Shown piece after piece: positions 11,907 to 43,253 of a DNA stretch of 64,000 nt (position 1 is its first letter; every line of letters begins with the position of its first letter). This DNA is from Verrucomicrobiales bacterium. GTDB lineage: Bacteria; Verrucomicrobiota; Verrucomicrobiia; Limisphaerales; UBA9464. Location of the stretch: assembly GCA_027488845.1 (NCBI GenBank), contig JAIYBC010000041.1:62001-126000 (forward strand), read 5' to 3'. Made by a program: the position numbers and the translations under genes. The notes beneath the pieces are model-generated. The model did not search any database. It saw only the letters and a list, made by a program, of their open reading frames with translations, and was not told the origin of the DNA.

Positions 11907-11999
11907 GGGACCTACCAGACCCAACTCCCTCCAGCCTGAGGTAACCTGAGCCATCCCCGGGAGTGTTCCCCGACGGCTTCTCCATTCTGGAGGAGCCTT

Positions 12000-19708: not shown

Positions 19709-19722
19709 GATCTGACCATCCC

Positions 19723-19739
19723 AATCTCAATTGGAGATT
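19723..19739 (-). promoter_or_regulatory. Dyad upstream of SIR2 gene
   Basis: AATCTC-AATTG-GAGATT is a perfect 6-bp inverted repeat 14 bases before the SIR2 gene ATG. It could be an operator or an mRNA leader hairpin. Confidence 0.35.
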
Positions 19740-19978
19740 AATTCGTCAAGGTTAAAACATAACTGTCGTGTTAAGGTGATTGCCATGGCGATTTTGGGAG
19801 ACTCACGCCATCTATGGATCTCGGGTATCACCCGAAAGCTCAACCATTTTTCCCCGCCCGAGGCCTTCTATTCTCAGCGTCTCGGTAGAAGAAACCGGAG
19901 AGAATTGAGTTTCTTGTCTTTTGGATGAGGAGTTGGCGGTGACCGAGCCAAGATCGAGGAGACGCCTGTGGGTACCGC

Positions 19979-23466: not shown

Positions 23467-24420
23467 CTAGTTTGGGGCGCCTTCGATCACCGAGAGGCGC
23501 TCCGCGTCCGCCATTGTTTGGCGGAGGCTTCTTGAAAGCACTCGTATGGACTGACGGACGACCGGCTTCTGATCGGGGACCTCAGGGAGCCAGGCGAGCA
23601 CAATCTCCCGGCTTAAACTTGTAAGTCCGGAAAACCGAAGAACCGCAAACCGGTCGCTCGGAAGATTTGCCGTGGCCACCGTGGGCAGGAACGCAGCAGC
23701 GTCACCGTGTTCGACCGATGCAAGCAGGAGCGAAAGTGTCTCTGCCTGAATCACGCGGTTTAGCTGGATGCCCGCCGCCGTCGAAACCTCTCGGGCTGTT
23801 GTCGCGAGCTGTCCGTCACCCATCAGCTCCGCAAACGGAAATGGTTTCCCTTCGTAAACCTCTTCACCCGTTCGAGACCGCAGGAGCTGGCGGGGCACCA
23901 CAAAGACGAACTCAAAAGTCCCAATGGTTTCTGTCGAGTGGTTCTCGGGAACGGCGGACTTCCGAACGAGGCCAACGTCAATCCGTCCCAGTTCAAGTTC
24001 TTGGATCACCTCCGCGCTGCGCAGACTCCGCACCCGGCAATGAATCGGGGGAGAAAGCCCTCGCAATGCACTCATGGATGGAACAAACAGCCAACGGAGC
24101 AGTCCTTCTCCGCCGCCTACGTTGAGCAATCCCGGTTTCTCCGCCTCCTGCGACGCCAAGTCAGCGACCGCTCCAAAAAACATTCGGCTCATGCGTGCCA
24201 ACTGCTGTCCGAGTGGCGTCGGCCTGAGCGTTTTGCCAACGCGTTCGAAGAGCTTCCCCCCGACGGCTTCCTCCAGTTCCTTGATCTGACGGCTGAACTG
24301 GCTCTGACGACTGGGACTTGGACCAGCGGCGGCCGCAATGGACCCGGCATCGATCACGCTGCAAAGCGTGGCAATCCGGTCGAGCGAGAACCCGTTCTTC
24401 GCAACAACCTCTGGCAGCAT
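23467..24420 (-). CDS. LysR-family transcriptional regulator
   Basis: A 317-aa protein from the ATG at 24420; a GTG 33 bases upstream is an alternative start. The N-terminal winged HTH reads IATLCSVIDAGSIAAAAGPS with SRQSQFSRQIKELEEAVGGK and LFERVGKTLRPTPLGQ, the classic LysR layout. The C-terminal about 220 residues form the effector-binding domain. It is divergent from the eleven-gene defence operon that begins at 24495, with a perfect palindrome right at its own start, so it is the obvious candidate regulator of that operon. The effector is unknown. LysR-type control of a defence cluster is unusual. Confidence 0.9.
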   Translation of the reverse strand: MLPEVVAKNGFSLDRIATLCSVIDAGSIAAAAGPSPSRQSQFSRQIKELEEAVGGKLFERVGKTLRPTPLGQQLARMSRMFFGAVADLASQEAEKPGLLNVGGGEGLLRWLFVPSMSALRGLSPPIHCRVRSLRSAEVIQELELGRIDVGLVRKSAVPENHSTETIGTFEFVFVVPRQLLRSRTGEEVYEGKPFPFAELMGDGQLATTAREVSTAAGIQLNRVIQAETLSLLLASVEHGDAAAFLPTVATANLPSDRFAVLRFSGLTSLSREIVLAWLPEVPDQKPVVRQSIRVLSRSLRQTMADAERLSVIEGAPN

Positions 24421-24440
24421 ACCTGACTGGAGAGTCAGGT
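24421..24440. promoter_or_regulatory. Perfect palindrome in LysR/defence divergent region
   Basis: ACCTGACT (24421-24428) and AGTCAGGT (24433-24440) form an exact inverted repeat with 4-base spacer GGAG, immediately upstream of the LysR ATG and 55 bases before the helicase start. It fits a regulator-binding site for both directions. Confidence 0.55.
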
Positions 24441-24494
24441 TATCTGCGAACACTTGCCATTCACAATGGGAATCGGGCCTGTCAGTGTTCGGAT

Positions 24495-27400
24495 GTGCTC
24501 AAACTGGAGAACATCACGGTAGGTTCGATTGTTGGCGGTATTCTCGCCAATCAAGTCGTAACCATCCGCCAGGTTCAGCTTTACGGCGACGATGTACTTT
24601 CCGTCACCTTCGTTGACGCCGAAGGGCGACCCGGTGAGGAACTTCTTTATCGTGACCGGGAAGCGTCCCTGTCGCTCGTGCAGCAAAGCAGGCCGTTCTC
24701 CTTCACCGCCGACAGCGCCAGCTTCCGCTTGGTTTCCGAGGCCCAACGCCTTCGCTACGCGTTCTTGTTCGACCCTCACATCGCCGTGAACACCTCGGCG
24801 GTGGACCCACTGCCTCACCAGATCACCGCCGTTTACGAGACGATGCTCGGCCGCCAGCCCCTCCGGTTCCTCCTGGCTGACGACCCGGGAGCCGGCAAAA
24901 CCATCATGGCGGGTCTGCTGATCAAGGAGCTCATGATTCGGGGCGATGTGGACCGGTGCCTGATCGTTTCTCCCGGCAGCCTGGTGGAGCAGTGGCAGGA
25001 CGAATTGGACGAGAAGTTCAACCTGCCCTTCGAGATCCTGACCAACGAAGGTCTGACGGCCGCCCGCACCGGAAACTGGTTTCAAGAGCACAACCTGTGC
25101 ATCGCCCGGCTCGACAAGCTCAGCCGGAACGAAGACATCCAAGCCAAGCTGGCGGCTGTGGACTGGGATCTCGTCATCGTGGACGAAGCCCACAAGATGT
25201 CCGCGACCTACTTCGGGTCGGAGGTCAAATACACGAAACGCTTCAAGCTAGGGCAACTCCTCTCGGGACACACCCGGCAGTTCGTCCTGCTCACGGCCAC
25301 ACCGCACAACGGCAAGGACGAGGACTTTCACCTGTTCCTTTCCCTTCTGGATGGAGATCGATTCGAGGGCAAGCCACGCGACGGTGCCCATGTCTCCGAC
25401 GTTTCCGATGTCATGCGGCGGATGGTCAAAGAGCAGCTGGTGACGATGGAGGGCAAGCCGCTGTTCCCGGAGCGCCGGGCCAACACGGTCGAGTATTCGC
25501 TGAGCGACGAAGAGCAGGAGCTTTACAAGGCCGTCACCGAATACGTCCGCCGCGAGTTCAACAACGCGGACAAGCTGAACAACGAGAAGCGCAAGGGCAC
25601 CATCGGCTTTGCCCTGACGCTGCTCCAAAGACGGCTGGCCTCCTCACCCGAGGCGATTTATCGCTCGCTCGACCGCCGCCTGAAGCGGCTCGAAGACCGA
25701 TTGCGCGAGGAGCGGTTGCTTCGGCGCGGTGTCGCTTCGGTCAACACCCGTCTCGCAGAGACCCAGGACCTGACCGACGAGGAAATCGAAGACCTCGAAG
25801 ACACGCCGGAAACGGAGGCGGAACAGACAGAAGAACAGATTGTGGACCAGTCCACGGCGTCGCAGACGCTGGCCGAGCTGGAAGCCGAGATCGTCATCCT
25901 CCGGGATCTCGTCCAGCAGGCGTTGAAGCTCCGTCGCTCAGGGAACGACACCAAGTGGCAACGCCTGTCCGAGACGCTTGACCTGCCCGAGATGTTTGAT
26001 GCCAACAGACTTCGCCGGAAACTGGTCATCTTCACCGAGCAGCGAGACACGCTGAACTATCTGACCGACAAGCTGGCTACTCGGTTCGGCAACCAGAACT
26101 CCATTGTCGCCATCCATGGCGGCACGCCGAGGGAACGCCGCCGTCAGGCCCAGGAATCGTTCGAGAACGACCCCGAGGTTCTGGTCCTCATGGCCACCGA
26201 TGCGGCGGGCGAAGGCATCAACCTCCACAAGCGAGCGCACCTGATGGTGAACTACGACCTGCCGTGGAATCCGAACCGCATCGAGCAACGCTTCGGCCGG
26301 ATTCACCGCATTGGCCAGAAGGAAGTCTGCCACCTCTGGAACCTCGTGGCCCACGAAACCCGAGAGGGAGAGGTCTGGCAGCGTTTGCTCCAGAAGCTTG
26401 CCCGGCAACGTGACCAGCTCGGTGGTGCCGTGTTTGATGTGCTGGGCCAGGTCTTCCGCGACCAACCGTTGAAGGACTTGCTGGTTCGCGCCATCCGCTA
26501 CGGCGAGCAGCCCGAAGTGAAGGCTCAACTGGACCGAGTCATTGATGAACAGTTGGATGCGGAACGGCTTCGCAGTCTCATCCACAATCGGTCGCTGGTG
26601 CATGACACGTTGGACCCGCAGCGAGTTCAGGACATCCGGGAACAGATGGAACGCGCCGAGGCGCGTCGGCTCCAGCCGCACTACATCGGCTCCTTCTTCC
26701 TGAAAGCCTTTGAATCCCTCGGAGGCACGGTCCACCGCCGGGAAACCAACCGTTACGAAATTCGCCACGTCCCCGCCGACATCCGGCACCGTGACCGGAT
26801 CATCGGGCAACGAGCCCCGGTCCTGAAGGCCTACGAACGCGTCACTTTTCACAAGGACCGCATTCGCGAAACCGGAAAACCTCCCGCTGCTCTGGTAGCG
26901 CCCGGCCATCCGCTCCTCGACTCCATCGTGGACCTGATTCTGGAAAAGCACCGCAGCCTGCTTAGGGAGGGTGCGGTCCTCGTGGACACGAACGACCAGG
27001 GCACGGAACCCCGGCTGCTCTTCTACTACGAGCATAGCGTCACCGACGGTCGCCGGGACTCGGGCGGAAATCCGCGGGTCGTCTCCCGACGGCTTCAGTT
27101 CGTGGAGATCACTCGCAGTGGCCAGTTGGTGAACGCGGGAACCGCTCCGTATTTGGACTACTCCCCCCCGACCGCAGAACAAAAGGCCCTGCTGCTCCCG
27201 CTTCTCGAAGAGACTTGGCTAGCGGACGGCGTGGAACGGAAGGCGACCGAACACGCCATCCGCCACCTTGTCCCCGAGCACTTGCGCGAAGTGCGAACTC
27301 GGCGTGAGGCGCTGGTGGATAAGACGCTGGAACAGGTTCAGGCGCGGCTGCTCGGAGAGATTCGCCACTGGGATCAACGGGCAAACGACCTCCGGGCGCG

Positions 27401-28028
27401 TGAGGAAGCGGGCCGAGCCGGGGACAAGCTCAATTCCGCCAACGCCCGCAAACGGGCAGACGAACTGAATGAGCGTCTCCAGAAGCGCAGGGCGGAACTG
27501 GCCCAGGAACGCCAGATCAGTGCCCGTCCGCCCACTGTCCTCGGCGGCGCCCTGGTCATTCCGATGGGTTGGTTTGCCACTGCCGGAGGCGCAAATGAGC
27601 CGGCAGCGTTGCAGGATAGCCCAACCCCTTACGGCCCCCCTGACTGCGAGGTGGAACGGCTGGCCATGGAGGCGGTCATGGCCTTTGAGCGCGCCCACGG
27701 TTTTGAGCCCCGGGACGTCTCGAAGGAGAATCGCGGCTACGACATCGAATCCCGTTACCCCACCGGTCACGCGAAGTTCGGGCAGTTGCGGTTCATCGAG
27801 GTCAAGGGGCGTGTCGCCGGAGCGGAAACCGTGAGCGTCACCAAGAACGAAATCCTCACCGCGCTCAACAAGCCCGATGATTTCATTCTCGCGCTTGTGT
27901 TCGTTGAATCGGGGCGGGCTGCAAAGCCCTGCTACCTCGACCGGCCATTCGAGCAAGAGCCTGACTTTGCCACCGCGAGTGTCACCTTCCGCGTCGATCA
28001 ACTCCTCTCCCGCACAGCCGCCGCATAA
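24495..28028 (+). CDS. SNF2-family helicase with C-terminal DUF3883
   Basis: A 1177-aa protein. The GTG at 24495 is chosen because MLKLENITVGSIV is the conserved beginning of this family, although the frame is open further upstream. Helicase motifs: Walker A DDPGAGKT (129-136), DEAH (230-233), LLTATPHNGKDEDF, and the C-terminal SF2 lobe with IHGGTPRERRR, TDAAGEGINLH and QRFGRIHRIGQ. Residues about 1060-1160 are DUF3883, a restriction-endonuclease-like fold: RGYDIES, then RFIEVKGR. Such SNF2-DUF3883 helicases accompany methylase-based defence systems including DISARM-like arrays, where they are thought to translocate on foreign DNA. It is the first gene of the cassette and is followed by the next gene at 15 bases. 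Confidence 0.93.
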   Translation: MLKLENITVGSIVGGILANQVVTIRQVQLYGDDVLSVTFVDAEGRPGEELLYRDREASLSLVQQSRPFSFTADSASFRLVSEAQRLRYAFLFDPHIAVNTSAVDPLPHQITAVYETMLGRQPLRFLLADDPGAGKTIMAGLLIKELMIRGDVDRCLIVSPGSLVEQWQDELDEKFNLPFEILTNEGLTAARTGNWFQEHNLCIARLDKLSRNEDIQAKLAAVDWDLVIVDEAHKMSATYFGSEVKYTKRFKLGQLLSGHTRQFVLLTATPHNGKDEDFHLFLSLLDGDRFEGKPRDGAHVSDVSDVMRRMVKEQLVTMEGKPLFPERRANTVEYSLSDEEQELYKAVTEYVRREFNNADKLNNEKRKGTIGFALTLLQRRLASSPEAIYRSLDRRLKRLEDRLREERLLRRGVASVNTRLAETQDLTDEEIEDLEDTPETEAEQTEEQIVDQSTASQTLAELEAEIVILRDLVQQALKLRRSGNDTKWQRLSETLDLPEMFDANRLRRKLVIFTEQRDTLNYLTDKLATRFGNQNSIVAIHGGTPRERRRQAQESFENDPEVLVLMATDAAGEGINLHKRAHLMVNYDLPWNPNRIEQRFGRIHRIGQKEVCHLWNLVAHETREGEVWQRLLQKLARQRDQLGGAVFDVLGQVFRDQPLKDLLVRAIRYGEQPEVKAQLDRVIDEQLDAERLRSLIHNRSLVHDTLDPQRVQDIREQMERAEARRLQPHYIGSFFLKAFESLGGTVHRRETNRYEIRHVPADIRHRDRIIGQRAPVLKAYERVTFHKDRIRETGKPPAALVAPGHPLLDSIVDLILEKHRSLLREGAVLVDTNDQGTEPRLLFYYEHSVTDGRRDSGGNPRVVSRRLQFVEITRSGQLVNAGTAPYLDYSPPTAEQKALLLPLLEETWLADGVERKATEHAIRHLVPEHLREVRTRREALVDKTLEQVQARLLGEIRHWDQRANDLRAREEAGRAGDKLNSANARKRADELNERLQKRRAELAQERQISARPPTVLGGALVIPMGWFATAGGANEPAALQDSPTPYGPPDCEVERLAMEAVMAFERAHGFEPRDVSKENRGYDIESRYPTGHAKFGQLRFIEVKGRVAGAETVSVTKNEILTALNKPDDFILALVFVESGRAAKPCYLDRPFEQEPDFATASVTFRVDQLLSRTAAA

Positions 28029-28043
28029 ACGTCGCACCAAGCT

Positions 28044-30314
28044 ATGCAATTGACCGCCAATGACATCGCCGCAGCCGCCGACAAGGTGGAGTTCGTCGTC
28101 AAGTCATTCGCTACTCCGGCGATAAAGGACCCCCGCGATCGGCGACTCGAATCGTGGCGATCCAGTCTCACGCAGGTCCGGAGCCTGCTCGCCGACACTG
28201 CGAGGGTTCAAATCGCAATGGTCGGCACAACGGGCGCGGGCAAATCGACCCTCCTCAATGCCGTGCTGGAGCATGAGCTCCTCCCCACGGGCGTGATGGA
28301 ACCTTGCACGGCTTTCGTCACGACCGTCACCTCCCACCCGCAAAAAGTCTGGAAACTGGAGGTCTCCTATCTGACTCGAAAGGATTGGGAATCCGAACTG
28401 GAGATCCTCGCGGACGCCCTGCGGAGCGAAACTCAGGAGGAGACTGGCGATGACCGCGGTGACGCCAACAAACTCAAACGGATGGCCAAGGCCAAACTGG
28501 CAGCCGTCTTCGGTCTCAAAAAGGATGAGATTCCAGATGGATTCGATCCGCGAGACCGGGCTTTACCCTTCCCAGTCGAAAGGGTGCTCAGCCGGGCCGA
28601 GCCGGAACAACTCAGTTTCGCCACCTTTGCCGAACTTCACACCCACATCAAAAGCCTGGTGCGTGGGGAAAGCCTGGTGTGGCCCCTCATTGAACAGGTT
28701 CGGGCCACCGGACCGATACCGAATCTCCCAGCTGGGCTGGAACTCGTTGATTTGCCTGGTTTGAACGACCCAAACCGCATCCGTGTAGAAACCACCCGGC
28801 GCTTCCTGTCGTCGGCTCCGCACATCTGGGTCGTCTTCAACATGAAGCGAGGCCTCACGGATGACATTCACGGAATTCTTCGGGAGCGAGGATTGCTACG
28901 ACGCTTGATCCTCAGCGGCAATTACTCCGCACTTGCTCTTGTCGGCACCCATGCGGACGACGTGGACGCTGACAACGCGGAAAGCCTGGGGCTGTCTCCC
29001 GAAGCCGGTTTTTCCGAAATCTACTCGGAGTATCGGCGGCAAGTTCGGACCAAGGCGCGGGAGCAGGTGTCGGATTTGGTCTCGGACATGCGCCAGCCCG
29101 GCGACAACGAAACCACCTTGCATCGCCTTTTGGAGGTCACAAAGGGCATCCCCGTCATTCCAACTTCCGCCCGGGCGTTTCTACGGATCAAGGGCGTCAC
29201 CAAGGCGAAAAAGGACTACGGCATCAGTGAGCCTTCGGAATCAGGAATCCCGGAAGTTCAGCAACACCTTGCCCGCGTTGCGTCTGAGGGAGGTCCGACC
29301 GCCCGGTTGCGGGAAGCACGCGACCGATTGGGATTCCTGTGCGACGAACTGGAGTTTTTTTTTCGAAGTCCAGGATCGTCCGCTTCGACCGCCCAAAGGC
29401 AGCAGGCCCGCGCCGAACTCGACCGGGCGCTTGAAGCTTTCGCGGCGGCCGTTAAGACCGTCCACGCCCACGCGCAGAGCCAGTATTCGGGCTACCGCGA
29501 AGCATTCCTGCAATCGCTCAAAACCTTGGTGCCCGAGGCGAAGAAGGGAGTCAGCCGCAGCACCGACCATTGGGGCGGAATCCATCACATGACGCTCAAA
29601 GCCATCGTGAAGCGCAATGGCTGCTTCGTCAGCCCATCGACAGGGCGCGACCACGATTTCAACGACGACATATCGAGCCCGCTGTTAAATCTCCTCCCGG
29701 TCAAGTGGGAGCATTTTTTCAACGATCAAATCGACCGGGTCGTTGGCGATGCGAGCACCAAACTGGAGGCCCAATCCCAGGCACTCGCGGATCAGATTGC
29801 GATGATTCTCCGTTTTGGAAAAGGGGCCGATGACGGAGACACCGGCGCGGAGCACCTTAAGTGGTTTCATTCCAAAATGGATTTTCTCCGCGACAAGTGT
29901 CGCGAGGTTCTCGCAAAACAGATTCGCGAAAGGCGCGGGAAACTAACCGGCGATGTTTACAACACCGCACAAGGTCAGATGCAGCCAGCCTACCGGGATA
30001 CTAAGGACGAGTCCGGCACCGGAATGAAGGCGCGGATACTCAGTCGGGTTCAATCGCACGCCGTCCACATCTCGTCCCCGCTGCACGAGTCCATCGAATC
30101 TGACCTGACCAAAGGGCTTGGTGAAGTGTGGCTTCAATTGGAGATCAACTTGCAGCGGCTATTTGAGGAAGTGCGCGATAAAGCACAGCAAATCGGGGCG
30201 AATGCCACGACAGATCTGCAATCGAGTCCGAGTGCCATCGCATTTCCAGATGCCATCAGGCAGCTCGAAGAAATTAAGGAGTCGTCTGCTTTCGCAACCA
30301 ATCTTACCAATTGA
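28044..30314 (+). CDS. Dynamin-like large GTPase
   Basis: A 756-aa protein. G1 GTTGAGKS (61-68), a conserved threonine in the EPCTAFVTTVTS switch region, G3 DLPGLND (236-242) and G4 THAD (302-305, replacing the canonical NK-x-D) define a dynamin-superfamily GTPase. The closest relatives known to me are SLIP-GC-like nuclear GTPases and bacterial dynamin-like proteins. The rest (about 380-750) is helical and fits a stalk. There is no transmembrane helix. Dynamin-like GTPases are known from antiviral settings (Mx proteins, bacterial DynA), but I do not know one in a methylase-based system. A run of nine T (29355-29363) within the gene is a possible slippage site. Confidence 0.85.
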   Translation: MQLTANDIAAAADKVEFVVKSFATPAIKDPRDRRLESWRSSLTQVRSLLADTARVQIAMVGTTGAGKSTLLNAVLEHELLPTGVMEPCTAFVTTVTSHPQKVWKLEVSYLTRKDWESELEILADALRSETQEETGDDRGDANKLKRMAKAKLAAVFGLKKDEIPDGFDPRDRALPFPVERVLSRAEPEQLSFATFAELHTHIKSLVRGESLVWPLIEQVRATGPIPNLPAGLELVDLPGLNDPNRIRVETTRRFLSSAPHIWVVFNMKRGLTDDIHGILRERGLLRRLILSGNYSALALVGTHADDVDADNAESLGLSPEAGFSEIYSEYRRQVRTKAREQVSDLVSDMRQPGDNETTLHRLLEVTKGIPVIPTSARAFLRIKGVTKAKKDYGISEPSESGIPEVQQHLARVASEGGPTARLREARDRLGFLCDELEFFFRSPGSSASTAQRQQARAELDRALEAFAAAVKTVHAHAQSQYSGYREAFLQSLKTLVPEAKKGVSRSTDHWGGIHHMTLKAIVKRNGCFVSPSTGRDHDFNDDISSPLLNLLPVKWEHFFNDQIDRVVGDASTKLEAQSQALADQIAMILRFGKGADDGDTGAEHLKWFHSKMDFLRDKCREVLAKQIRERRGKLTGDVYNTAQGQMQPAYRDTKDESGTGMKARILSRVQSHAVHISSPLHESIESDLTKGLGEVWLQLEINLQRLFEEVRDKAQQIGANATTDLQSSPSAIAFPDAIRQLEEIKESSAFATNLTN

Positions 30315-30357
30315 GTATGGCTCAACCGAGAGCTTTCCGGACCCACCTCTGACGCCA

Positions 30358-31368
30358 ATGATTCGAAACAATCCTAATCAGATAGAGGTAAGCGTTACCA
30401 TTCCGCGGGATGACAATGGCATGATGGGTCGCGAGTGCCCGAAGTGCGAACTCGTGTTCAACATCAAACCTGGCACTGGCCTCAAAGGCGAAGACCTGCC
30501 GTGCCACTGCGCCTACTGCGGGCACATTGCCCCGCACAACCAATTCTTCACGAAGGCGCAGATTGAATACGCGAAGTCCGTCGCCGTAAGGCAGGTTACC
30601 GACAAGTTACATCGTCAACTGAAGCGGCTTGAGTTCAGTCATCCGCCGCGTGGGCCGCTCGGCATTGGCATCAGCTTGAAGGTGACGACGCGGCCTTACC
30701 CAATCCGCTACTACGGCGAGCGTGAACTGGAAACCGAGGTCGTGTGCGACCAATGCACTCTGCTGTATTCCATCTACGGCGCGTTTGCCTTTTGCCCAGA
30801 CTGCGGCTCGCACAACTCTTTCACCATCCTCACCAAGAACCTTGAGCTTGCGGACAAGATGCTCGCACTGGCGGCGGGCGTAAGCCGAGACCTGGCCGAC
30901 CAGTTGATTGGGGATGCCCTGGAGAATGTGGTGTCCGGCTTCGATGGTTTTGGGCGTGAACTCTGCCGCGTGGCAGCGCCAAAAGCGACGAACCCAGCGG
31001 AAGCCGAGGATGTGCGATTCCAGAATCTCACGGGCGCTCGCACCCGCGTGCAGAAGCTATTCTCCATCGACATGACCACGCTGGTCGCGGCCAACGAATG
31101 GGAGTTTGCCTGCCGGTGCTTCCAAAAACGGCATCTGCTGGCGCACAAGATGGGCGTCGTCGATGAGGATTACTTGCAGGCCACAAATGATCGGGCAGCG
31201 GTGGTTGGCAGAAAGATTCAGATTAGCCCGGAGGACGTGAAACGCCTGTGCGCCGCGATGCGCCAACTTGGCGAGAAGCTCGTCAGATTGGTAATGCCAC
31301 AACCCAAAGCCTCAACTCCGCTCAATACTCACGTCACATCCAAGGAGAACCATGCCACGGACAATTGA
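30358..31368 (+). CDS. Double zinc-ribbon protein with HEPN-like domain
   Basis: A 336-aa protein; the ATG at 30358 is the first sensible start after the GTPase stop. The N-terminus has a zinc ribbon CPKC (about 27-30) with CAYCG; a second ribbon CDQC with CPDCG follows at about 131-154. The C-terminal half is helical and contains KRHLLAH (R258-x4-H263), a classic HEPN RNase motif, with a KMG-x-VD continuation as in many HEPN proteins. It would be a zinc-binding toxin-like RNase or regulator. The 3' end overlaps the start of the nucleotidyltransferase gene by 17 bases, so these genes are coupled. Confidence 0.8.
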   Translation: MIRNNPNQIEVSVTIPRDDNGMMGRECPKCELVFNIKPGTGLKGEDLPCHCAYCGHIAPHNQFFTKAQIEYAKSVAVRQVTDKLHRQLKRLEFSHPPRGPLGIGISLKVTTRPYPIRYYGERELETEVVCDQCTLLYSIYGAFAFCPDCGSHNSFTILTKNLELADKMLALAAGVSRDLADQLIGDALENVVSGFDGFGRELCRVAAPKATNPAEAEDVRFQNLTGARTRVQKLFSIDMTTLVAANEWEFACRCFQKRHLLAHKMGVVDEDYLQATNDRAAVVGRKIQISPEDVKRLCAAMRQLGEKLVRLVMPQPKASTPLNTHVTSKENHATDN

Positions 31369-32224
31369 TGAAGGCTTTCGAGACTTTCTGACCAAGCTCA
31401 CCCCGAGCAGTTCAGAGACAGAGGCAGCGAAGAGCCATCGCTCGTCCATTGAGACACGGCTCAAAAGAGATTTCGGCCTTAGGCGCTTTGCCCGCATTGG
31501 CTCATTCGGTAACGGAACGAGCATTTCTGGCTACAGTGATGTTGATTACTTGGCGTCGCTTGGCCGTGACACGCTCACAAGCAACTCAAGCTATTCACTC
31601 GGGAAGATTCGCGACTCGCTGGACGACCGGTTTCCGCATACGGGAGTCCGGGTGAGCTGCCCGGCCGTGGTCGTTCCGTTTGGGAGTGCAAAGTCAGAAA
31701 CGACGGAGATCGTCCCCGCTGACTACATCAAAGAAGAAGGCGGGCACTCCGTTTATGACATTCCAGACTGTAAAGGAGGGTGGATGCACGCCAGTCCCGA
31801 CGCCCATAACGCCTACGTCGCGACAATCAACGAAAAGCTCGGAGGAAAAGTTAAGCCATTGATTCGCTTCATCAAGGCGTGGAAATGCTACCGCGATGTC
31901 CCCATATCATCATTTTACCTCGAATTGCGTGTTGCCAAATATGCTTACAGTGAATCGTCCATCATCTATGACTTTGATGTAAAGCGCGTGTTGTGCCAAT
32001 TGCGAGACTGCAAGCTGGCGGACATGCAAGACCCTATGGGCGTTTCGGGCTATATACCAGCCTGCAAGACTCAGGCTTTCTACGAAGATGCCATTTCCAA
32101 GCTGGATACCGCCGCAACGCGTGCGGAGAAGGCACGTGAGGCCGCTGACAAGGGAAACATCGCTGATGCATTTGAAATGTGGCGACTGCTCTATAACTAC
32201 CAATTCCCAACCTACTACTATTGA
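31352..32224 (+). CDS. CD-NTase-like nucleotidyltransferase (SMODS type)
   Basis: A 290-aa protein with a strong ribosome site (AAGGAGAACC). The motif GSFGNGTSISGYSDVDYL places GS at 50-51 and catalytic D63 and D65, followed by a third acidic residue in TTEIVPAD (E119) with the VPA signature of OAS/cGAS-like CD-NTases. The C-terminal helical domain includes PLIRFIKAWKCYRDVPISSF. These enzymes make cyclic oligonucleotide second messengers on phage infection in CBASS. The next gene encodes an S-4TM pore-forming effector, a known CD-NTase partner, so the two likely form a minimal CBASS-like module. No ancillary Cap2/Cap3 or HORMA/TRIP13 genes are present. Confidence 0.85.
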   Translation: MPRTIDEGFRDFLTKLTPSSSETEAAKSHRSSIETRLKRDFGLRRFARIGSFGNGTSISGYSDVDYLASLGRDTLTSNSSYSLGKIRDSLDDRFPHTGVRVSCPAVVVPFGSAKSETTEIVPADYIKEEGGHSVYDIPDCKGGWMHASPDAHNAYVATINEKLGGKVKPLIRFIKAWKCYRDVPISSFYLELRVAKYAYSESSIIYDFDVKRVLCQLRDCKLADMQDPMGVSGYIPACKTQAFYEDAISKLDTAATRAEKAREAADKGNIADAFEMWRLLYNYQFPTYYY

Positions 32225-33136
32225 GTGAACGGCATTACGGCAACACAAAACGAGGAACGGCAAGTTCAGCGGTTGGCCGCGCAAAGGCAACTTTACGCAA
32301 CCGCGAAGACTCTTTTCGGTTGGCAAGTGTTCTTGAGCGGCCCAGTTGCTGTTACTCTGGCCCTTGTCGTTGCCGGAGTGCCTCAAGTAAAGGCCTACGC
32401 TGCGCTGTGGGGGATAATCGTGAGCCTGAGCGATGTGTTCTGGCTTACGCCGTGGCAAAGGAGGCTACGCAACAAGGCTGCTCGGGTGCAGGAGTTGTTC
32501 GATTGCGACGTCTTGGTGCTTCCTTGGGATGAGTTGAGGGCGGGCAAGCGCCCAGAACCCGAACTCGTGAAGGAGCAATCGGACAAATACAAACGTTGGG
32601 AGGCGACCATGCCCCCGCTGTCGAATTGGTATGGCGCAGAAGTCGCTTGCTTGCCGCTTCATATCGCGCGACTTGCCTGTCAGCGCTCCAATTGTTGGTG
32701 GGATGCGAAGCAGCGTCGGCGTTATGCAACGTGGGTCATCAGTGCAGTTTCACTGGTCTTCCTCACGGTGCTCTTCCTGGCAATGGGCAATGGTCTGACC
32801 GTTGAGAGTTTTGTGGTCAAGGTCGCAGCTCCGCTTGCGCCTGCTCTACTTCTTGGGATTAGACAGTTTACCGAGCAAATGGAGGCAGCCTCCCGACTGG
32901 ACACATTGAAAGAACACGCTGAACGGCTCTGGAACGATGCACTTTGCGGGAATCCAGAACCCGAAATCAGTTCGAGAGCGCGAGGACTTCAAAATGAGAT
33001 TTTGGAAAACAGAAAGCGAAGCCCGTTGGTGTTTGATGAGATCTTCAAGCGACTTCGTCGCAACTACGAATCTCAGATGAATCACGGAATTGCCGAGTTC
33101 GTTGCGGAGGCTAAGCAGAAGCTTGGACTGCAATAG
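32225..33136 (+). CDS. S-4TM family pore-forming effector
   Basis: A 303-aa protein starting with GTG abutting the stop of the nucleotidyltransferase gene. Four membrane helices are visible in two pairs: about 30-53 and 57-75, then about 165-187 and 190-210, separated by a soluble loop containing DVLVLPWDEL. The C-terminal 90 residues are helical (NEILENRKRSPLVFDEI, then RRNYE). This layout matches the S-4TM putative pore-forming effectors described near SMODS nucleotidyltransferases, which would depolarise the membrane when a cyclic nucleotide appears. Fusion-free pairing with the preceding gene supports it. Confidence 0.82.
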   Translation: MNGITATQNEERQVQRLAAQRQLYATAKTLFGWQVFLSGPVAVTLALVVAGVPQVKAYAALWGIIVSLSDVFWLTPWQRRLRNKAARVQELFDCDVLVLPWDELRAGKRPEPELVKEQSDKYKRWEATMPPLSNWYGAEVACLPLHIARLACQRSNCWWDAKQRRRYATWVISAVSLVFLTVLFLAMGNGLTVESFVVKVAAPLAPALLLGIRQFTEQMEAASRLDTLKEHAERLWNDALCGNPEPEISSRARGLQNEILENRKRSPLVFDEIFKRLRRNYESQMNHGIAEFVAEAKQKLGLQ

Positions 33137-33146
33137 TCATCACCTC

Positions 33147-33866
33147 ATGCCGACTACTGCCAAAAACCACTTTGACAAAGACATCGCCCGCGCATTCGCG
33201 CTCCACGCGAAGGCAGAGACACTTCAAACGTCTGGTGATGCGACGCAATTGCCAGAAGACATCCGAGGCGCAGCAGTGGCACTGGCTGTCGGGGCGATGG
33301 ACGCCTACTTCTGCGACAAATACGTGGACTGTTTGACCGCCGCCGTGCAGTCGTATTCCAGAAATGCCTGGAATGGGCCGTTCCCGGCTGCTTTCCGGCA
33401 GCAACGTTTACCTGCCGGTGAGGTCCTCGACGCGTCGCGCCCTCATCGACCGAAATGGGGAATTCGCATGGCGGCGAAGGCGGTGATGGAGAAGGACAAC
33501 ATGTATTCCCTTTCGCGGCTCCATGATGTTTTCAATGGAATCCTTCCGAGTGGGCAGAAACTCTGGCTTGGAATCGTGCCTCCGCTCGTTGCGCTCGTTC
33601 GGCGGCGCTTCACCAGGTTCCTTCCTTCTGATCTCGCGACGTTGACTGGCAAACCGCTCCAGAATGCGCAGAAGGGAGTTGTCAGTTCAGTAAAGAAGCG
33701 AATCAGCACCACGGTCCAATTCCGACATGACTGGATTCACAACTGCTCAAGACCGAAGGGCGCAATCGTGAATTACACGAACGGAGAGGCAAGAGCGGCA
33801 ATGAACGAAATCAAGAGCTTGGTGGACATCTTCGATGCACACATCGAGGCGCACCGGCTTGCTTAG
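33147..33866 (+). CDS. HEPN-domain protein (RiboL-PSP type)
   Basis: A 239-aa protein from the ATG at 33147. An N-terminal helix pair contains DIRGAAVALAVGAMDAYF, and near the C-terminus FRHDWIHNC carries the HEPN R193-x4-H198 catalytic motif. The pattern (AxxAVGAMDAYF early, RHDWIH late) resembles the RiboL-PSP-HEPN family of toxin-like RNases. It lies ten bases after the S-4TM gene. A tRNA- or rRNA-cleaving effector is the family-based guess; no antitoxin is evident nearby. Confidence 0.8.
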   Translation: MPTTAKNHFDKDIARAFALHAKAETLQTSGDATQLPEDIRGAAVALAVGAMDAYFCDKYVDCLTAAVQSYSRNAWNGPFPAAFRQQRLPAGEVLDASRPHRPKWGIRMAAKAVMEKDNMYSLSRLHDVFNGILPSGQKLWLGIVPPLVALVRRRFTRFLPSDLATLTGKPLQNAQKGVVSSVKKRISTTVQFRHDWIHNCSRPKGAIVNYTNGEARAAMNEIKSLVDIFDAHIEAHRLA

Positions 33867-33895
33867 CTGCCCATGACATCGACCACCACATCTCC

Positions 33896-34984
33896 GTGAC
33901 TGACGAGCCTCTAATTCGATTGTTCCAGCGTCATTTTGCTGACCCGGTTGCAGCCTTGAGGCGACTGGACTCGCATCTGGCTGACGTCGGGTTGCCGTTC
34001 GATCTAAAAGCTCAACTGCGGGAGCTTTCGTTCCCGGCCCAGCCGGGGCTGCCGAACGGAGTTCCGTCATGCATTTATTACTTCGTTCCGAATTCTCGGC
34101 GAGGCTCGGACCAGCCCGCTCCGGAAGACCCGCTCCATCCGTCTTTCGTTAACGCCTGCGACGGAATCGGTTTGAACCTTGGCTGCCCTGTCCGGCTCTT
34201 ACGTGCGTTGGACGCGCTCGCTCAACTCGCCGCCGATGACCGGCGCCCGCCGATAGACGCCCTTCGCAACTCACCGGAGCACCTAAATGCGGTCGAAGAA
34301 CTCCTCTGGCTCACCGGCTGGAAGTCTCCCTCGGCACTGCGGCGGGGCGGTCAATTCCCCGGTATCAACGGTGACGTGGACTGGTTTCTCGCAGCGAGCG
34401 GCTTCCCGATTTTCGTTGAGGCGAAGTTCCGCCGCTCTGACTGGCCCCGATTGTCGGACGGGAACAGTTTTGTCCGAATGGGCGACGGATTCCTGTCGAG
34501 CGCGGCTCACAAGTTCCCCGACCCACCCCAGACGACCGCCGTTCACGTCCTCGGCATCACGACCTTCGCGAACATCACTAACGATATCCTGCACCTTATC
34601 GGTGCCGAGTTGGAGGCAACCCCTCAAATCCACGCGGTTGTCGTTCGGAGTCTGCTCCAGATGACGCATGTCATTTCTTTGCACGTCGACATTCGAGACC
34701 GTGTGCTTGCCTTGCTCGCTGTTCCATCCATCGCGGACTTCCCGGTTAATCACGGCGTTTTCTTCCACCGCGAGCAACGCGAGGAACGAGTGGCTCAACG
34801 GCCCTCACAAGGCGGCTCGATTGCCAAGTCCAGAGCTGTCTGCTGGTCCATACGCCCGCAGGGCGCCGTCCCGTTTTCGATGCCTGAGCCGAGCCTTTAT
34901 CGCCTGAGTATCCCGACACGCGGGGCCGATGGTGAACCGCATTTCCAAGTCATTCCCAAATACCTGATGTCTTCTCACGCATGA
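33896..34984 (+). CDS. Candidate PD-(D/E)XK nuclease of defence operon
   Basis: A 362-aa protein starting with GTG. It is not a family I know by name. A central motif fits the PD-(D/E)XK nuclease core: GDVDWFLAASGF (D at the end of a strand) followed by FPIFVEAKFRR (E-x-K). C-terminal strands and helices follow. Its stop overlaps the DUF1156 start as ATGA, so it is probably the restriction partner coupled to the methylase. That role is inferred from the motif and position. Confidence 0.65.
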   Translation: MTDEPLIRLFQRHFADPVAALRRLDSHLADVGLPFDLKAQLRELSFPAQPGLPNGVPSCIYYFVPNSRRGSDQPAPEDPLHPSFVNACDGIGLNLGCPVRLLRALDALAQLAADDRRPPIDALRNSPEHLNAVEELLWLTGWKSPSALRRGGQFPGINGDVDWFLAASGFPIFVEAKFRRSDWPRLSDGNSFVRMGDGFLSSAAHKFPDPPQTTAVHVLGITTFANITNDILHLIGAELEATPQIHAVVVRSLLQMTHVISLHVDIRDRVLALLAVPSIADFPVNHGVFFHREQREERVAQRPSQGGSIAKSRAVCWSIRPQGAVPFSMPEPSLYRLSIPTRGADGEPHFQVIPKYLMSSHA

Positions 34985-37881
34985 CCTACAAAAAGAAGCT
35001 GATCGAAGTGGCGTTGCCGCTGGAGGACATCAATCGCGAGGCGGCGCGGGAGAAGTCCATCCGGCATGGGCATCCGTCCACGTTGCACTTGTGGTGGGCG
35101 CGACGGCCGTTGGCGGCCTGTAGGGCGGTCCTGTTTTCGTCATTGGTGGATGATCCGTCGGAGTGTGTGGCGGAGCTCATGGCAGATGCGGCGAAGCGGA
35201 AGGCGGCGGAGAAGGCCTTTACGGTTCAGAAGAGGGCGTGGGATTCGCGAAAGGCGATCTTCGACAAAGCAGCGGCATCAGGAATGCCGGTGACCAGCAA
35301 CCCGCCTCCAGGCCTGGAGCCGAAGGTTGAGGACATTCTCGTCGAGACGGAGCGCGAGCGCTTGTTCGACATCATTCGCGAGCTGGTGAAATGGGATAAC
35401 TCCAACGATGACCGCACGCTCAACAAGGCGCGGGCGGAGATAATGCGGTCCACTGGCGGCAATCCGCCGCCAGTGTATGATCCGTTTTGCGGCGGCGGTT
35501 CGATTCCGCTGGAGGCGCAGCGGCTCGGACTGGAGGCGCACGCCAGCGATTTGAATCCCGTGCCGGTGCTCATCAATAAGGCGCTCATCGAAATTCCGCC
35601 GAAGTTCGCGGCGAAGCCGCCGGTGAACCCGGAGTCGCGGAAGAGGTTGAGCGCGTCCGGCTCATGGAAGGGTGCGGCGGGATTGGCCGAGGACATTCGT
35701 TACTACGGCCAATGGATGCGCGACGAGGCTGAGAAACGCATCGGCCATCTCTATCCAAAGCTGAGACTGCCCAAGGACCACGGCGGCGGCGAAGCAACGG
35801 TGATTGCGTGGCTGTGGGCGCGAACGGTGGCCAGTCCCAACCCGGCGGCCAAAGGTGCGCATGTGCCGCTGGTACGGTCGTTCTGGCTCTCGACCAAGGC
35901 AGGTAAGAAGGCGTGGGTTGAACCCGTGGTGGACCAGGGCACGATGACCTATCGGTTTGAAGTTCACACGGGCAACGGCGAACCACGCGCGGGCACGATG
36001 AGTCGCAACGGTGGCTTGTGCCTGCTCACTGGCAGTCCGATGCCGCTGGACTACATTCGCACGGAAGGCAAGGCCGGTCGGTTAGGAGCGCGGATGATGG
36101 CGATCGTGGCGGAAGGGCCGGGCGGGCGGGCCTACCTTCTTCCGACCAACGAACATGAACGGATTGCACTGGCAGTGGAAGCGCCGGACAACGTGCCGGA
36201 TACCGACATGGTTGTGAACTCGCGCTACATGACACCGACCGGCTATGGCATGACAAAGCACCGGCACCTGTTTACGAACCGTCAACTCGCTACGCTAGCC
36301 ACGATGTGTGACCTAGTAGACGAGGCCCGATCCAAAGCACTTGAGGACTCTAAAAGCGACACGGCCCACGCAAATGCGGTCGCTACATATCTCGGCTTTG
36401 CACTGAGCAAGGCGCTGGATCGCAATACTAGTCTCTGCTCGTGGGAGCCAGGAATGGGCCGTATGGGTCATACATTTGGGCGCCAGGCAATCCCGCTGAT
36501 CTGGGATTATGTTGAGACTAATCCATTCGCTGGTGCCGGTGGCGACATATACGGCGTGGTTCATTCACTGTGCGAGGTTTTGGACAAGCTGCCTGCCGGC
36601 AGGGCAGGCACAGTTTCCCAGCTTAGTGCTGAGGAGCTGGCGAACAGCCGAACGTGCATGTTTTCGACAGACCCGCCATACTACGACAACGTTCCTTACG
36701 CAGATCTCTCTGACTTCTTTTACGTGTGGCTGCGTCGCTGCCTACTGCCACTTTACCCCGACCTGCTCGGAACTGTGCTTGTGCCGAAGGCTCAGGAATT
36801 GGTTGCAGACCCGCTTCGACACGGCGGCAAAGACGAGGCGCGGTCCTTTTTCGAGGGCGGCATTAGTCGGGTGTTCGCACGAATGCGGGAGGCGGGCGAT
36901 CTGCGATTTCCAACGACTATCTACTACGCTTTCAAACAATCTGAAGATGAAGGCGATGCAAACGAGGATGCCGAAAGCTCAAGCGCCAAGCGCTCTTCGA
37001 CTGGATGGGAAACGTTCTTGCAGGGCTTGGTAAACGCCGGTTGGCAAGTTGACGGCACTTGGCCAATGCGCACGGAATTGGGTAATCGGATGCGAAACAT
37101 GTCCAGTAACGCACTCGCTTCTTCAATTGTCCTTGTTTGCAGGCCTCGCCCGAGCGACGCGGGCGTGGCGTCGCGCCGCGATTTTCTGGGTGCGCTAAAG
37201 CGGGAATTGCCCGAGGCGCTGCGGAATCTGCAGAAGGGGAATATCGCGCCGGTGGATTTGGCACAAGCTGCCATAGGGCCGGGCATGGCCGTGTTCAGCC
37301 GTTACGCTCGCGTGCTCGAAACCAATGGCGACCCGATGGGAGTGCGCACCGCACTGTCGCTCATCAACCAGTCGCTCGACGAAGTCTTGGCCGAACAGGA
37401 AGGCGAGTTCGACGCGGACACGCGCTGGGCGCTGGCGTGGTTCGACCAATACGGCTTCACCGAGGGCGCCTACGGCCAGGCCGAGACTCTCTCGACGGCG
37501 AAGAACACCAGTGTGTCCGGCATGGTCGAAGCCGGTATCCTCGCGGCCAAAGCCGGGAAGGTGCGTCTGCTGAAGAAGGAGGAACTCCCGGCAGATTGGG
37601 ACCCAGCCAACGACGACCGCCTCACCGTCTGGGAGGCAACGCATCATCTCATCCGATCCCTCGACAGCGGCGAACAAACTGCCGCCGGGTTGTTGAAGAA
37701 ACTAGGCGCGATTGCCGAAATCGCCCGCGACCTCAGCTACCGCCTCTACACCGTCTGCGAACGCCGCAAATGGTCGCAAGACGCCATCGGCTACAACGCG
37801 CTCGTCCTAAGCTGGCCGGATTTGAAACGCCTGGCGGACGAACAGAAGGCGACGGGACCGAGCCAGGGGGAACTGATTTAA
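34981..37881 (+). CDS. DUF1156 N6-adenine DNA methyltransferase
   Basis: A 966-aa protein. The N-terminus (KKKLIEVALPLEDINREAAR, then GHPSTLHLWWARRPLAACRA) is the DUF1156 signature. The methylase domain has motif I DPFCGGGSIPLEA (167-179) with an aspartate-containing SDLN loop for AdoMet, and catalytic motif IV DPPYYDNVPYAD at 564-575. It should modify adenine (or cytosine) in its recognition site, protecting self DNA. DUF1156 methylases pair with DUF499 ATPases and SNF2 helicases in DISARM-like defence clusters, as here. The gene has a perfect palindrome CCTGCCGGCAGG (36592-36603) in its middle, inside coding sequence for LPAGRAG. Confidence 0.92.
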   Translation: MTYKKKLIEVALPLEDINREAAREKSIRHGHPSTLHLWWARRPLAACRAVLFSSLVDDPSECVAELMADAAKRKAAEKAFTVQKRAWDSRKAIFDKAAASGMPVTSNPPPGLEPKVEDILVETERERLFDIIRELVKWDNSNDDRTLNKARAEIMRSTGGNPPPVYDPFCGGGSIPLEAQRLGLEAHASDLNPVPVLINKALIEIPPKFAAKPPVNPESRKRLSASGSWKGAAGLAEDIRYYGQWMRDEAEKRIGHLYPKLRLPKDHGGGEATVIAWLWARTVASPNPAAKGAHVPLVRSFWLSTKAGKKAWVEPVVDQGTMTYRFEVHTGNGEPRAGTMSRNGGLCLLTGSPMPLDYIRTEGKAGRLGARMMAIVAEGPGGRAYLLPTNEHERIALAVEAPDNVPDTDMVVNSRYMTPTGYGMTKHRHLFTNRQLATLATMCDLVDEARSKALEDSKSDTAHANAVATYLGFALSKALDRNTSLCSWEPGMGRMGHTFGRQAIPLIWDYVETNPFAGAGGDIYGVVHSLCEVLDKLPAGRAGTVSQLSAEELANSRTCMFSTDPPYYDNVPYADLSDFFYVWLRRCLLPLYPDLLGTVLVPKAQELVADPLRHGGKDEARSFFEGGISRVFARMREAGDLRFPTTIYYAFKQSEDEGDANEDAESSSAKRSSTGWETFLQGLVNAGWQVDGTWPMRTELGNRMRNMSSNALASSIVLVCRPRPSDAGVASRRDFLGALKRELPEALRNLQKGNIAPVDLAQAAIGPGMAVFSRYARVLETNGDPMGVRTALSLINQSLDEVLAEQEGEFDADTRWALAWFDQYGFTEGAYGQAETLSTAKNTSVSGMVEAGILAAKAGKVRLLKKEELPADWDPANDDRLTVWEATHHLIRSLDSGEQTAAGLLKKLGAIAEIARDLSYRLYTVCERRKWSQDAIGYNALVLSWPDLKRLADEQKATGPSQGELI

Positions 37882-37899
37882 CGGAGAACCAGTCACGCC

Positions 37900-38799
37900 A
37901 TGCCAACACAACGAGGTCGCTACTACCTGTCGAGGGTCATCAAGCTTGGAAGCCTGACGCAGGACAAACTGGCGCAGGCTATTCTGGGTGCGCCTGTGTT
38001 GCAGATCGGAAAATTTCAGTGGGCTATCACGGACACCTTCGATGGCCGCGAATCCGATCCGAAGTTTCTCTTCGGCAAATTGGCAAAGTATTCCAGCGAG
38101 GGGCGGGTCACGGTGGTGGACCCTGAGAAGAAGTCCCAGTTGGATGCGCTCGCCCCGAACCTCCTGGTCGCGAGTGCACCCTTTGTGTATCTGCCGGAGT
38201 TTTCGGGCATTGCCTTCCTTCACGTTTGGAATGGCATTCAGGAGGACCTCTTTCCGAAACGGTTCTGCTCACTGATCGAAGCCGCCTACCAGAACTTCTT
38301 TGTCGATTGTTCGGTTGAACCGGTAGCCGATTACCGGGCGTTCGTGGAGAAGTTGGACAACCTCGACCGAATTACTGAGCTGAGCGCCAAGGTTCATCCA
38401 CCGAATCCCCTTTTTGGCCATCTCTGGGGTCCGTTGAAGGACTACATTGTTCAACGAAACGCCGAAGAGGTAGCGGTAAGGGAGAAGAAGACTGATGGCG
38501 AAGGACTCAAGACCGAATTACGGGAACTGATGCGCGAACTTCTGGCCGGGCCGCCTTCCGCTCCACCCTCAACCGCTCCGCAAAAAGTGGACATTACCGA
38601 TGCGGCAATGCTGATGGCCGCCGACGGGTATGGGCACGGCAAGGTGACCGGAGAGCAAAAGGGCGAGGTGGTGATCATCCGCACTTCGGACACCCACAAA
38701 AGCTTCCTGCATTCCAAGGAGCCCGATCCGGTCGAACTGGCTTCAGCGGCGGCGAAGTTGTTCAAGGGAATCTCCGACGAACGCCACATGGAGCATTGA
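37900..38799 (+). CDS. Unrecognised conserved defence-operon protein
   Basis: A 299-aa soluble protein with no family I recognise. The first 170 residues are mixed alpha/beta (YYLSRVIKLGSLTQDKL, GKFQWAITDTFDG, APFVYLPEFSGIAFLHVW). A charged, proline-rich linker at about 195-225 leads to a small C-terminal beta-rich domain with VIIRTSDTHKSF. It lies 18 bases after the DUF1156 gene and its stop overlaps the next start, so it belongs to the same operon. Homologous clusters often carry a DUF3780 gene at a comparable position; I cannot confirm that this is one. Confidence 0.8.
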   Translation: MPTQRGRYYLSRVIKLGSLTQDKLAQAILGAPVLQIGKFQWAITDTFDGRESDPKFLFGKLAKYSSEGRVTVVDPEKKSQLDALAPNLLVASAPFVYLPEFSGIAFLHVWNGIQEDLFPKRFCSLIEAAYQNFFVDCSVEPVADYRAFVEKLDNLDRITELSAKVHPPNPLFGHLWGPLKDYIVQRNAEEVAVREKKTDGEGLKTELRELMRELLAGPPSAPPSTAPQKVDITDAAMLMAADGYGHGKVTGEQKGEVVIIRTSDTHKSFLHSKEPDPVELASAAAKLFKGISDERHMEH

Positions 38800-39284
38800 T
38801 GAGAGGCATTCCAGCCATTCTGCGGTCGATCTTCATCTCCCCGGAGTTTCTGGTGGTTATCGCAGGGGTGGCATTGGCCTGTGTGTTTCCAATGGAGTGT
38901 ATTTGGATCAGCCAGCGCATCAGTCAGCAGCCTGAATTGCTGAAGTATGCGTGGCTACTTCCTGCCGGATTGGTGGCCTACGACCTCAAGGTGGCAAAAA
39001 GCATCCTGCTCCCCGATGCTGACAAGAAGATGCTTTTGCAAGGCTGGCAGCGCTACTGGGAACTGAAGTCCACCACCACCGTCGGAGTGCTATACGGATT
39101 CGGATTTGCCGTAGCAGGACTGGTGACGATGGCCTTCGATTGGAAGGTTCCAGCTTCGCATCAGGCGGCCACATTGCTTGTGGCGGTCATCGGGGCGGTG
39201 GTAGTCACTGCTTCGCTGTTCTACGCACAGATCCGGATCGAAGAGCTGTTTCGAGAGCACAATCAGAGCAATACACCACGATGA
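38799..39284 (+). CDS. Small polytopic membrane protein
   Basis: A 161-aa protein from the ATG at 38799, overlapping the previous stop by one base (TGATG). Four hydrophobic segments are visible (about 12-33, 45-62, 92-112, 124-145), the last ending in a short C-terminal cytoplasmic tail with RIEELFRE. I do not recognise a family. Small membrane proteins in defence operons are often effectors that damage the membrane, but here this is only a hypothesis. No signal peptide. Confidence 0.75.
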   Translation: MRGIPAILRSIFISPEFLVVIAGVALACVFPMECIWISQRISQQPELLKYAWLLPAGLVAYDLKVAKSILLPDADKKMLLQGWQRYWELKSTTTVGVLYGFGFAVAGLVTMAFDWKVPASHQAATLLVAVIGAVVVTASLFYAQIRIEELFREHNQSNTPR

Positions 39285-39352
39285 ACCACAGTGTTTTCAA
39301 TTCCCTACAAACAGCTCAGCTTGTGGCAGCTCAACTTTACCAGCACTGAATC

Positions 39353-42709
<3,357 letters not shown>

Positions 42710-42715
42710 TGAAGA

Positions 42716-42745
42716 AAGCCCTCCATGGCTGGAGGGCTTTCGTTT
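42716..42745 (+). terminator. Strong intrinsic terminator of defence operon
   Basis: AAGCCCTCCA (42716-42725) pairs perfectly with TGGAGGGCTT (42730-42739) around a 4-base loop, followed by TTCGTTT, seven bases after the DUF499 stop. Confidence 0.85.
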
Positions 42746-42852
42746 CAGGGGTGGAAATACCACAGCTCCTTGAGGGAGCTGAAGTTCCGAATGAACGAAG
42801 TAGGCTGGGGTAAAGCGGGTGATTGCGCGCCAGGTTGATGAATCCGGGCGGA

Positions 42853-43179: not shown

Positions 43180-43253
43180 AGACAGTTCCTCCTATGTCCC
43201 CCAGTCGCTGGCCGAGCGGCGTCCGCTCCATTGGAACGAGTGTTCGGCCGGAA

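Follow-up and report, generated by a model that had tools for sequence, protein, structure and literature searches.

A predicted dynamin-like GTPase with a DUF7605 region, encoded beside HmaA in a verrucomicrobial Hma operon

What a large GTPase of dynamin type might be doing inside a DNA-modification defence cluster is the question raised by this locus, which lies in a window of 64,000 nucleotides (the whole stretch of DNA analyzed) from a Verrucomicrobiales bacterium. We approached it by establishing what kind of GTPase is encoded, which operon it belongs to, and how closely it is tied to that operon in related genomes.

Identity of the GTPase

The gene and its two recognizable domains, each of them well above its Pfam cut-off of 27 bits, are located as follows:

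28044..30314 (+): dynamin-like large GTPase, Dynamin_N plus DUF7605, ATG start, 756 aa; the main finding
28212..28856 (+): Dynamin_N G-domain match, GTPase residues 57-271 (Pfam, 1.9e-17, 64.3 bits)
29538..30059 (+): DUF7605 domain, GTPase residues 499-672 (Pfam, 2.9e-12, 47.3 bits)

The 756-aa frame stands exactly as given in the first-pass annotation, with domain scores far above chance and a full-length orthologue, 88% identical, at a locus of another Verrucomicrobia MAG (L004). The readings of G1 (GTTGAGKS, residues 61-68), G3 (DLPG, 236-239) and G4 (THAD, 302-305) were likewise correct, and a G5-like TSA at residues 374-376 can be added to them. In G4, the window's THAD pairs with TKAD of PDB chain 5owv_A, the lysine thus being replaced, and the corresponding motif reads TATD in a more distant relative from another family of the phylum (G177); as the usual lysine is missing, guanine specificity could be weaker. 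The P-loop, DLPG, TxxD and the G5-like SA are kept in the three-way alignment of these GTPases. Comparison of the window and L004 copies over 756 codons gave a dN/dS of 0.042, with silent sites saturated, and by this measure the gene is under strong purifying selection. Both Dynamin_N and DUF7605 exceed their cut-offs in the window and in L004, and DUF7605 does so in the G177 protein as well, which is 26% identical to the window GTPase over 673 alignment columns, with both halves matching. Identity to it is 33% in the G domain, 27% in DUF7605 and 15-24% in the remainder, so that the two domains are the better kept parts of the protein.

In a set of 14 control genomes, Dynamin_N scored above cut-off in 12, including archaea, and it did so at two other sites in this genome; its score alone is therefore no proof of a dynamin, and the decision rests with the PDB profile search and with DUF7605. 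The top two chains in that search were bacterial dynamin-like proteins, 5owv_A (1.2e-11; labelled 'GTP-binding protein' and presumably the Campylobacter jejuni pair) and 2j68_A (4.4e-10), both with alignments significant in the G domain only, while EngA/Der chains appeared at E about 0.01 or worse and no chain named Mx was present among the best 60 of 61 matches. The C-terminal part had no solved relative in the PDB at E up to 1. Moreover, no NCBIfam model reached its cut-off, the DynA-type equivalog model scoring 17.7 bits against a cut-off of 1600. Overall, the Pfam, PDB profile and NCBIfam searches place the protein with the dynamins rather than with translation-type or AAA-type GTPases, the other classes considered at first annotation, and its sequence marks it as a large GTPase of dynamin type whose C-terminal part carries DUF7605. 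Two further assignments were rejected: McrB-type AAA+ GTPase, the sole AAA trace being an AAA_29 P-loop match below cut-off (E 0.0073), and Eleos membership, the LeoBC match of 29.8 bits covering 67 residues at the P-loop and not the full length.

SLIP-GC (NUGGC) is a nuclear GTPase of vertebrate immune cells, and DUF7605 is, we assume, the C-terminal domain of SLIP-GC-like proteins, borne by SLIP-GC itself and by fungal proteins. The earlier comparison of the gene with SLIP-GC is supported in that a DUF7605 region follows Dynamin_N, and the link to SLIP-GC depends on that presumed assignment of DUF7605. The suggestion of membrane remodelling is unsupported: a 19-residue hydropathy scan detected no transmembrane-like segment or hydrophobic paddle in the GTPase, whose best mean of 1.06 is below the shuffled median of 1.52 (the neighbouring 4TM effector, as a control, reached 2.32), so that the protein is most likely soluble, although it may still bind membranes in a peripheral or amphipathic manner. 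AlphaFold modelling of the full protein gave a pLDDT of 39.9, too low for use, and the C-terminal 326 residues were predicted to be almost all helical, but at a pLDDT of only 48.4.

The Hma operon and its cargo

The genes surrounding the GTPase are listed below:

24495..28028 (+): HmaA, SNF2 helicase with C-terminal NOV_C, PD-(D/E)XK-like GYDI..EVK (PADLOC HmaA 1643.4 bits; Pfam; motif)
30358..31368 (+): cargo ORF with CxxC clusters and RHLLAH (R-x4-H; HEPN-like by motif only) (PADLOC PDC-M14A 54.5 bits)
31352..32224 (+): CBASS CD-NTase (SMODS), GS...DVD active-site motif (Pfam SMODS 3.5e-14; PADLOC Cyclase 409 bits)
32225..33136 (+): CBASS 4TM effector, S_4TM (Pfam 2.4e-90; PADLOC 333 bits)
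33147..33866 (+): cargo ORF without family assignment, carries RHDWIH (HEPN-like by motif only)
33896..34984 (+): cargo ORF, no family, D..VEAK motif (candidate PD-(D/E)XK nuclease, motif only)
34981..37881 (+): HmaB, DUF1156 N6-adenine methyltransferase, DPPY (PADLOC HmaB 1160 bits; Pfam DUF1156)
37900..38799 (+): cargo between HmaB and HmaC, ORF without family assignment
38796..39284 (+): cargo between HmaB and HmaC, ORF for a hydrophobic product, probable membrane protein
39353..42709 (+): HmaC, Swt1-like HEPN plus DUF499 ATPase, GGGKT P-loop (PADLOC HmaC 1072 bits)

With its HmaA, HmaB and HmaC core, the operon is, judged by gene content, a complete Hma system (alias Type-1 BREX-related), which upholds the placement of the GTPase inside a DNA-modification defence cluster. 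DISARM was rejected, as DrmD scored 388.9 bits against 1643.4 bits for HmaA on the same helicase. The likely start of HmaA is the GTG at 24495, the mechanical ORF beginning at 24318. As to the immediate neighbours, announced as a helicase and a HEPN protein, the former is indeed present as HmaA, whereas the downstream ORF at 30358-31368 has its HEPN character by motif only, with no Pfam HEPN match; the HEPN domain fused to HmaC was recognized by Pfam (HEPN_Swt1, 8.3e-38, 129.7 bits). The genes run head to tail on one strand with intergenic distances of -17 to +68 nt, and this tight spacing suggests a single transcript, even if close packing may also reflect hitchhiking. A scan of 24200-43200 for promoter-like (1; shuffles 4.3) and terminator-like sites (15; shuffles 20.8) was uninformative on this point. 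Near the operon, a SIR2 plus DUF4020 protein, Dsr1-like (247 bits), is encoded at window 16064-19708 (-), and a protein kinase with WD40 repeats at window 47431-50748 (-).

Between HmaA and HmaB, the window thus carries the GTPase, a PDC-M14A-type ORF, a CD-NTase, a 4TM effector and two family-less ORFs. To see how this interval, hereafter the slot, is used elsewhere, we counted 16 loci with HmaA followed by HmaB (the window, L004, L005, G177, L048-L052, L054-L058, L078 and L082). More than 1 kb separates the two genes in 11 of them, and 0.6 kb or less in the other five (L048, L052, L057, L078 and L082). The window, L004, L005 and G177 entered the count via the GTPase, and all four are filled; among the 12 loci chosen independently of it, the slot is filled in seven. 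The count leaves out L053 (HmaA not found; Z1 and DUF4420 proteins precede HmaB), L081 (HmaA, HmaC and an inverted HmaB), contigs ending in HmaA (G900:C19 and those of G880 and G882), HmaA-like matches at up to 41% identity, and HmaB matches below 900 bits except that of G288 (L058), a weaker Hma whose HmaA is 33% identical.

The cargo is diverse. Thoeris occupies the slot of L004 (ThsA 550 bits, ThsB 214 bits), a Tiamat-like protein with SIR2-HerA that of L005 (171, 324 and 628 bits), and the GTPase with an HTH-Fic pair that of G177. Septu was found in the slots of L051 and L054, an AbiL-like ATPase in L049, HEC-01 in L056, HEC-07 in L055 (weak, 72 bits), a YhcG/PDC-S02 nuclease in L050, and HerA with AAA_21 in L058. 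The second slot, between HmaB and HmaC, holds a TIR protein with a short pAgo in L004 and AbiEi-AbiEii in L005; the former, at L004 12604-15548 (+), is a SPARTA-like pair in which the TIR gene precedes the pAgo (pAgo_I 648 bits). The family-less ORFs at window 33896-34984 and L005 14675-15796 each lie directly before HmaB, and both carry a D..E-x-K nuclease-like motif; blastp detected no similarity between the two. In L081, from G767 (9691-12237 (-), 16900-19079 (+) and 19242-19901 (+)), HmaA and HmaC accompany an inverted HmaB (residues 3-776), and a second HmaB start follows at a distance of 7 kb, with two tyrosine recombinase genes in between, an arrangement that may represent an invertible methylase-specificity cassette. 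As auxiliary nucleases in such loci have been reported (PMC12839542), cargo as such is already known.

Linkage of the GTPase to HmaA

In all three full-length cases (the window, L004 and G177), the GTPase gene immediately follows HmaA and precedes HmaB. It stays there although the cargo behind it differs, being CBASS in the window, Thoeris in L004 and HTH-Fic in G177, whose HmaA is 57% identical to that of the window. Between the window and L004, DNA homology spans 23840-30323 without a break, covering HmaA and the GTPase, ceases 9 nt past the GTPase stop and restarts at 34981, the first base of HmaB; HmaA is 88% identical between the two, with a dN/dS of 0.038 and silent sites saturated. The bases that follow the GTPase stop (TATGGC-C) are common to the window, L004 and L005, and in L004 they form the start of the first ThsB gene, so that Thoeris may be the older neighbour of the GTPase, as these few bases hint. 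The recurrent position next to HmaA is circumstantial, and a functional link to restriction, as suggested at first, is so far unsupported.

L005 provides a case in which the GTPase is incomplete. Its HmaA is 95.5% identical to that of the window, but its GTPase lacks codons 1-471, which are replaced by a Tiamat-like gene of 1397 aa (TmtA 171 bits; sacsin-type ATP-binding domain). What is left are 281 residues of GTPase homology, the DUF7605 end, in a 291-aa ORF whose ATG overlaps the stop of the Tiamat-like gene; as the genes overlap so neatly, an assembly chimera at this first junction is unlikely. The locus keeps HmaA, HmaB and the start of HmaC, where it ends, and with these retained in spite of the loss, the G domain of the GTPase looks dispensable to that Hma system. 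The stub has undergone 28 amino-acid changes since the window and L005 split, and the window copy four (p 2e-5); with the edges removed, the figures are 16 and three (p 0.003). The controls also lean towards L005, though more weakly, with 25 against 10 changes in HmaA (p 0.01), 76 against 52 in HmaB (p 0.03) and seven against two in the first 92 residues of HmaC (p 0.10); tested against HmaB, the excess of the stub is significant (0.003, or 0.04 after trimming), and tested against HmaA it is not (0.14, or 0.34 after trimming). Its dN/dS to the window copy is 0.17-0.22, roughly a three- to fivefold increase over the 0.04-0.05 of the window-L004 pair but still well under 1. The stub is probably a remnant under relaxed constraint, the decay test being suggestive only, even though it may conceivably work as a DUF7605-only protein.

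Among overlapping samples of Verrucomicrobiota, DUF7605 was detected in 2/387, 1/345 and 2/384 genomes, which amount to three distinct ones (G000, G177 and G647, the last being the genome of L004) with one match each; in 3/3 it lies inside the Hma slot and nowhere else, and the three full-length bacterial members all come from this one phylum. HmaB matches at E up to 1e-30 occurred in 25/387 genomes, 12 of them with at least 900 bits. Hma is thus commoner than DUF7605, and the GTPase an uncommon occupant of the slot. The contig scan for relatives used a single-protein query, which reaches close relatives only. A tblastn search at 1e-5 of 72,556 plasmid and 50,697 phage records gave no GTPase match, and on viral contigs the pattern candidates (21 for the single-protein query, 161 for the alignment) yielded no confirmed relative. 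Six more matches in the phylum (L008-L013) were weak and limited to the N-terminal part; all but L012 were examined with blastp and phmmer, which left the C-terminal half unmatched in 5/5, and all six were set aside. Other dynamin-like genes were seen in passing: an operon-like run at L083 680-11909 (+) comprises a fusion of patatin with Dynamin_N, another Dynamin_N, a TerB-like protein and one more Dynamin_N protein, of 773 aa, which weakly matches the G177 GTPase, and a 1260-aa open frame at L084 1-3780 (-) combines two Dynamin_N stretches with an AMPK1_CBM glycogen-binding domain.

Possible role and comparison with known systems

Altogether, we consider it reasonably probable that the gene encodes an auxiliary anti-phage defence GTPase of the Hma slot, linked to HmaA. 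The word defence refers to location here, since no NCBIfam cut-off is reached and the best PADLOC score, 29.8 bits, is confined to the P-loop. In such a scheme, the Hma core would mark self DNA and attack unmarked DNA, while the GTPase, presumably co-transcribed with it, would bind and hydrolyze GTP, self-assemble via its C-terminal region, and serve as a second layer against phage that survives methylation-directed restriction. Its neighbours point to a cytosolic protein close to the DNA, which may assemble on phage or restriction complexes, and the assembled protein could then block phage progress or trigger the module behind it. The target is the weakest step of this mechanism: that it is cytosolic (a nucleoprotein of the phage, complexes on DNA, or the Hma complex) rather than the membrane is a tentative proposal, about which we are doubtful.

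The alternative that fares best, unlikely as we find it, is a self-contained defence gene lodged in the slot and independent of HmaA, HmaB and HmaC. A slot that takes many unrelated modules would suit such a lodger, as would downstream partners that differ among the three loci with a full-length GTPase; nevertheless, the gene stands beside HmaA even at 57% HmaA identity, and between the window and L004 the two diverge in step (88% each) while the other cargo differs. We give rather less credence to a membrane-acting dynamin that, like DynA of B. subtilis, patches or remodels the membrane in infection and delays lysis. The best solved relatives of this dynamin-type G domain are bacterial dynamin-like chains, which act on membranes, but significant similarity is confined to that domain and the GTPase has no transmembrane or paddle-like hydrophobic segment. 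DynA, itself dynamin-like, is reported to protect against phage (PMC8844932), yet the DynA-type model stays far below its cut-off here. That the GTPase is an accessory of the adjacent CBASS module is very improbable: in the window, the CD-NTase and 4TM effector do lie one gene downstream, whereas its neighbour is Thoeris in L004 and an HTH-Fic pair in G177, with no CD-NTase match in the slot proteins examined at those two loci. The majority of bacterial dynamins are not known to be dedicated to defence, but a GTPase with a chromosomal, envelope or stress role that has ended up in a defence island is scarcely credible with DUF7605 found in Hma only in 3/3 genomes.

A bolder extension of the auxiliary role, which we put forward as speculation with little expectation that it will hold, is that DUF7605 GTPases arose as an invention of bacterial immunity. 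As a sensor or clamp driven by GTP, and semi-core in one Hma lineage, such a protein would bind HmaA or the DNA-bound Hma complex via DUF7605 and couple failed restriction to the CBASS, Thoeris or Fic module behind, and animal SLIP-GC would be its descendant. Should the GTPase prove protective, the origin of SLIP-GC-type GTPases could be tested directly. In the three close relatives, the HmaA proteins are about 88-95% identical and the cargo is unlike (CBASS; Thoeris; Tiamat-like plus SIR2-HerA), the GTPase being common to all, whole in the window and L004 and in part in L005. The gene brings together antiviral dynamin-like proteins of bacteria, with their resemblance to immune GTPases of animals, and restriction-modification-like operons that carry exchangeable second-line systems.

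Compared with known proteins, the GTPase shares with SLIP-GC/NUGGC and fungal DUF7605 proteins the order Dynamin_N then DUF7605 (presumed in those proteins), and differs from SLIP-GC in being bacterial and part of an anti-phage operon; DUF7605 returned no literature match, and among the matches listed, no title or abstract opening mentioned a bacterial DUF7605 or SLIP-GC-like GTPase. The bacterial dynamin-like proteins 2j68 ('bacterial dynamin-like protein') and 5owv have a homologous G domain, with nothing significant beyond it, and the window GTPase is without a hydrophobic segment. Eleos likewise employs dynamin-like GTPases in defence, but the matches (LeoBC 29.8 and LeoA 22.9 bits in the window; LeoA 35.3 bits over 37 residues in G177) are limited to the P-loop area, the window GTPase has DUF7605, and PADLOC detected no further Leo-type gene within the slot of the window. 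DynA resembles it as a dynamin-like protein that affects phage outcome and differs by an equivalog score of 17.7 of 1600 bits.

As for the operon, the main text of PMC12839542 contains none of the words GTPase, dynamin, CBASS and Thoeris; the available part describes a Type-1 BREX-related system with a DUF499 ATPase, often with HEPN, a DUF1156 methylase and a Snf2 helicase-nuclease, and auxiliary effectors inside these loci that are nucleases and their partners. The window operon has the same Snf2 helicase with a C-terminal nuclease motif, the same DUF1156 methylase and the same HEPN-DUF499 ATPase.
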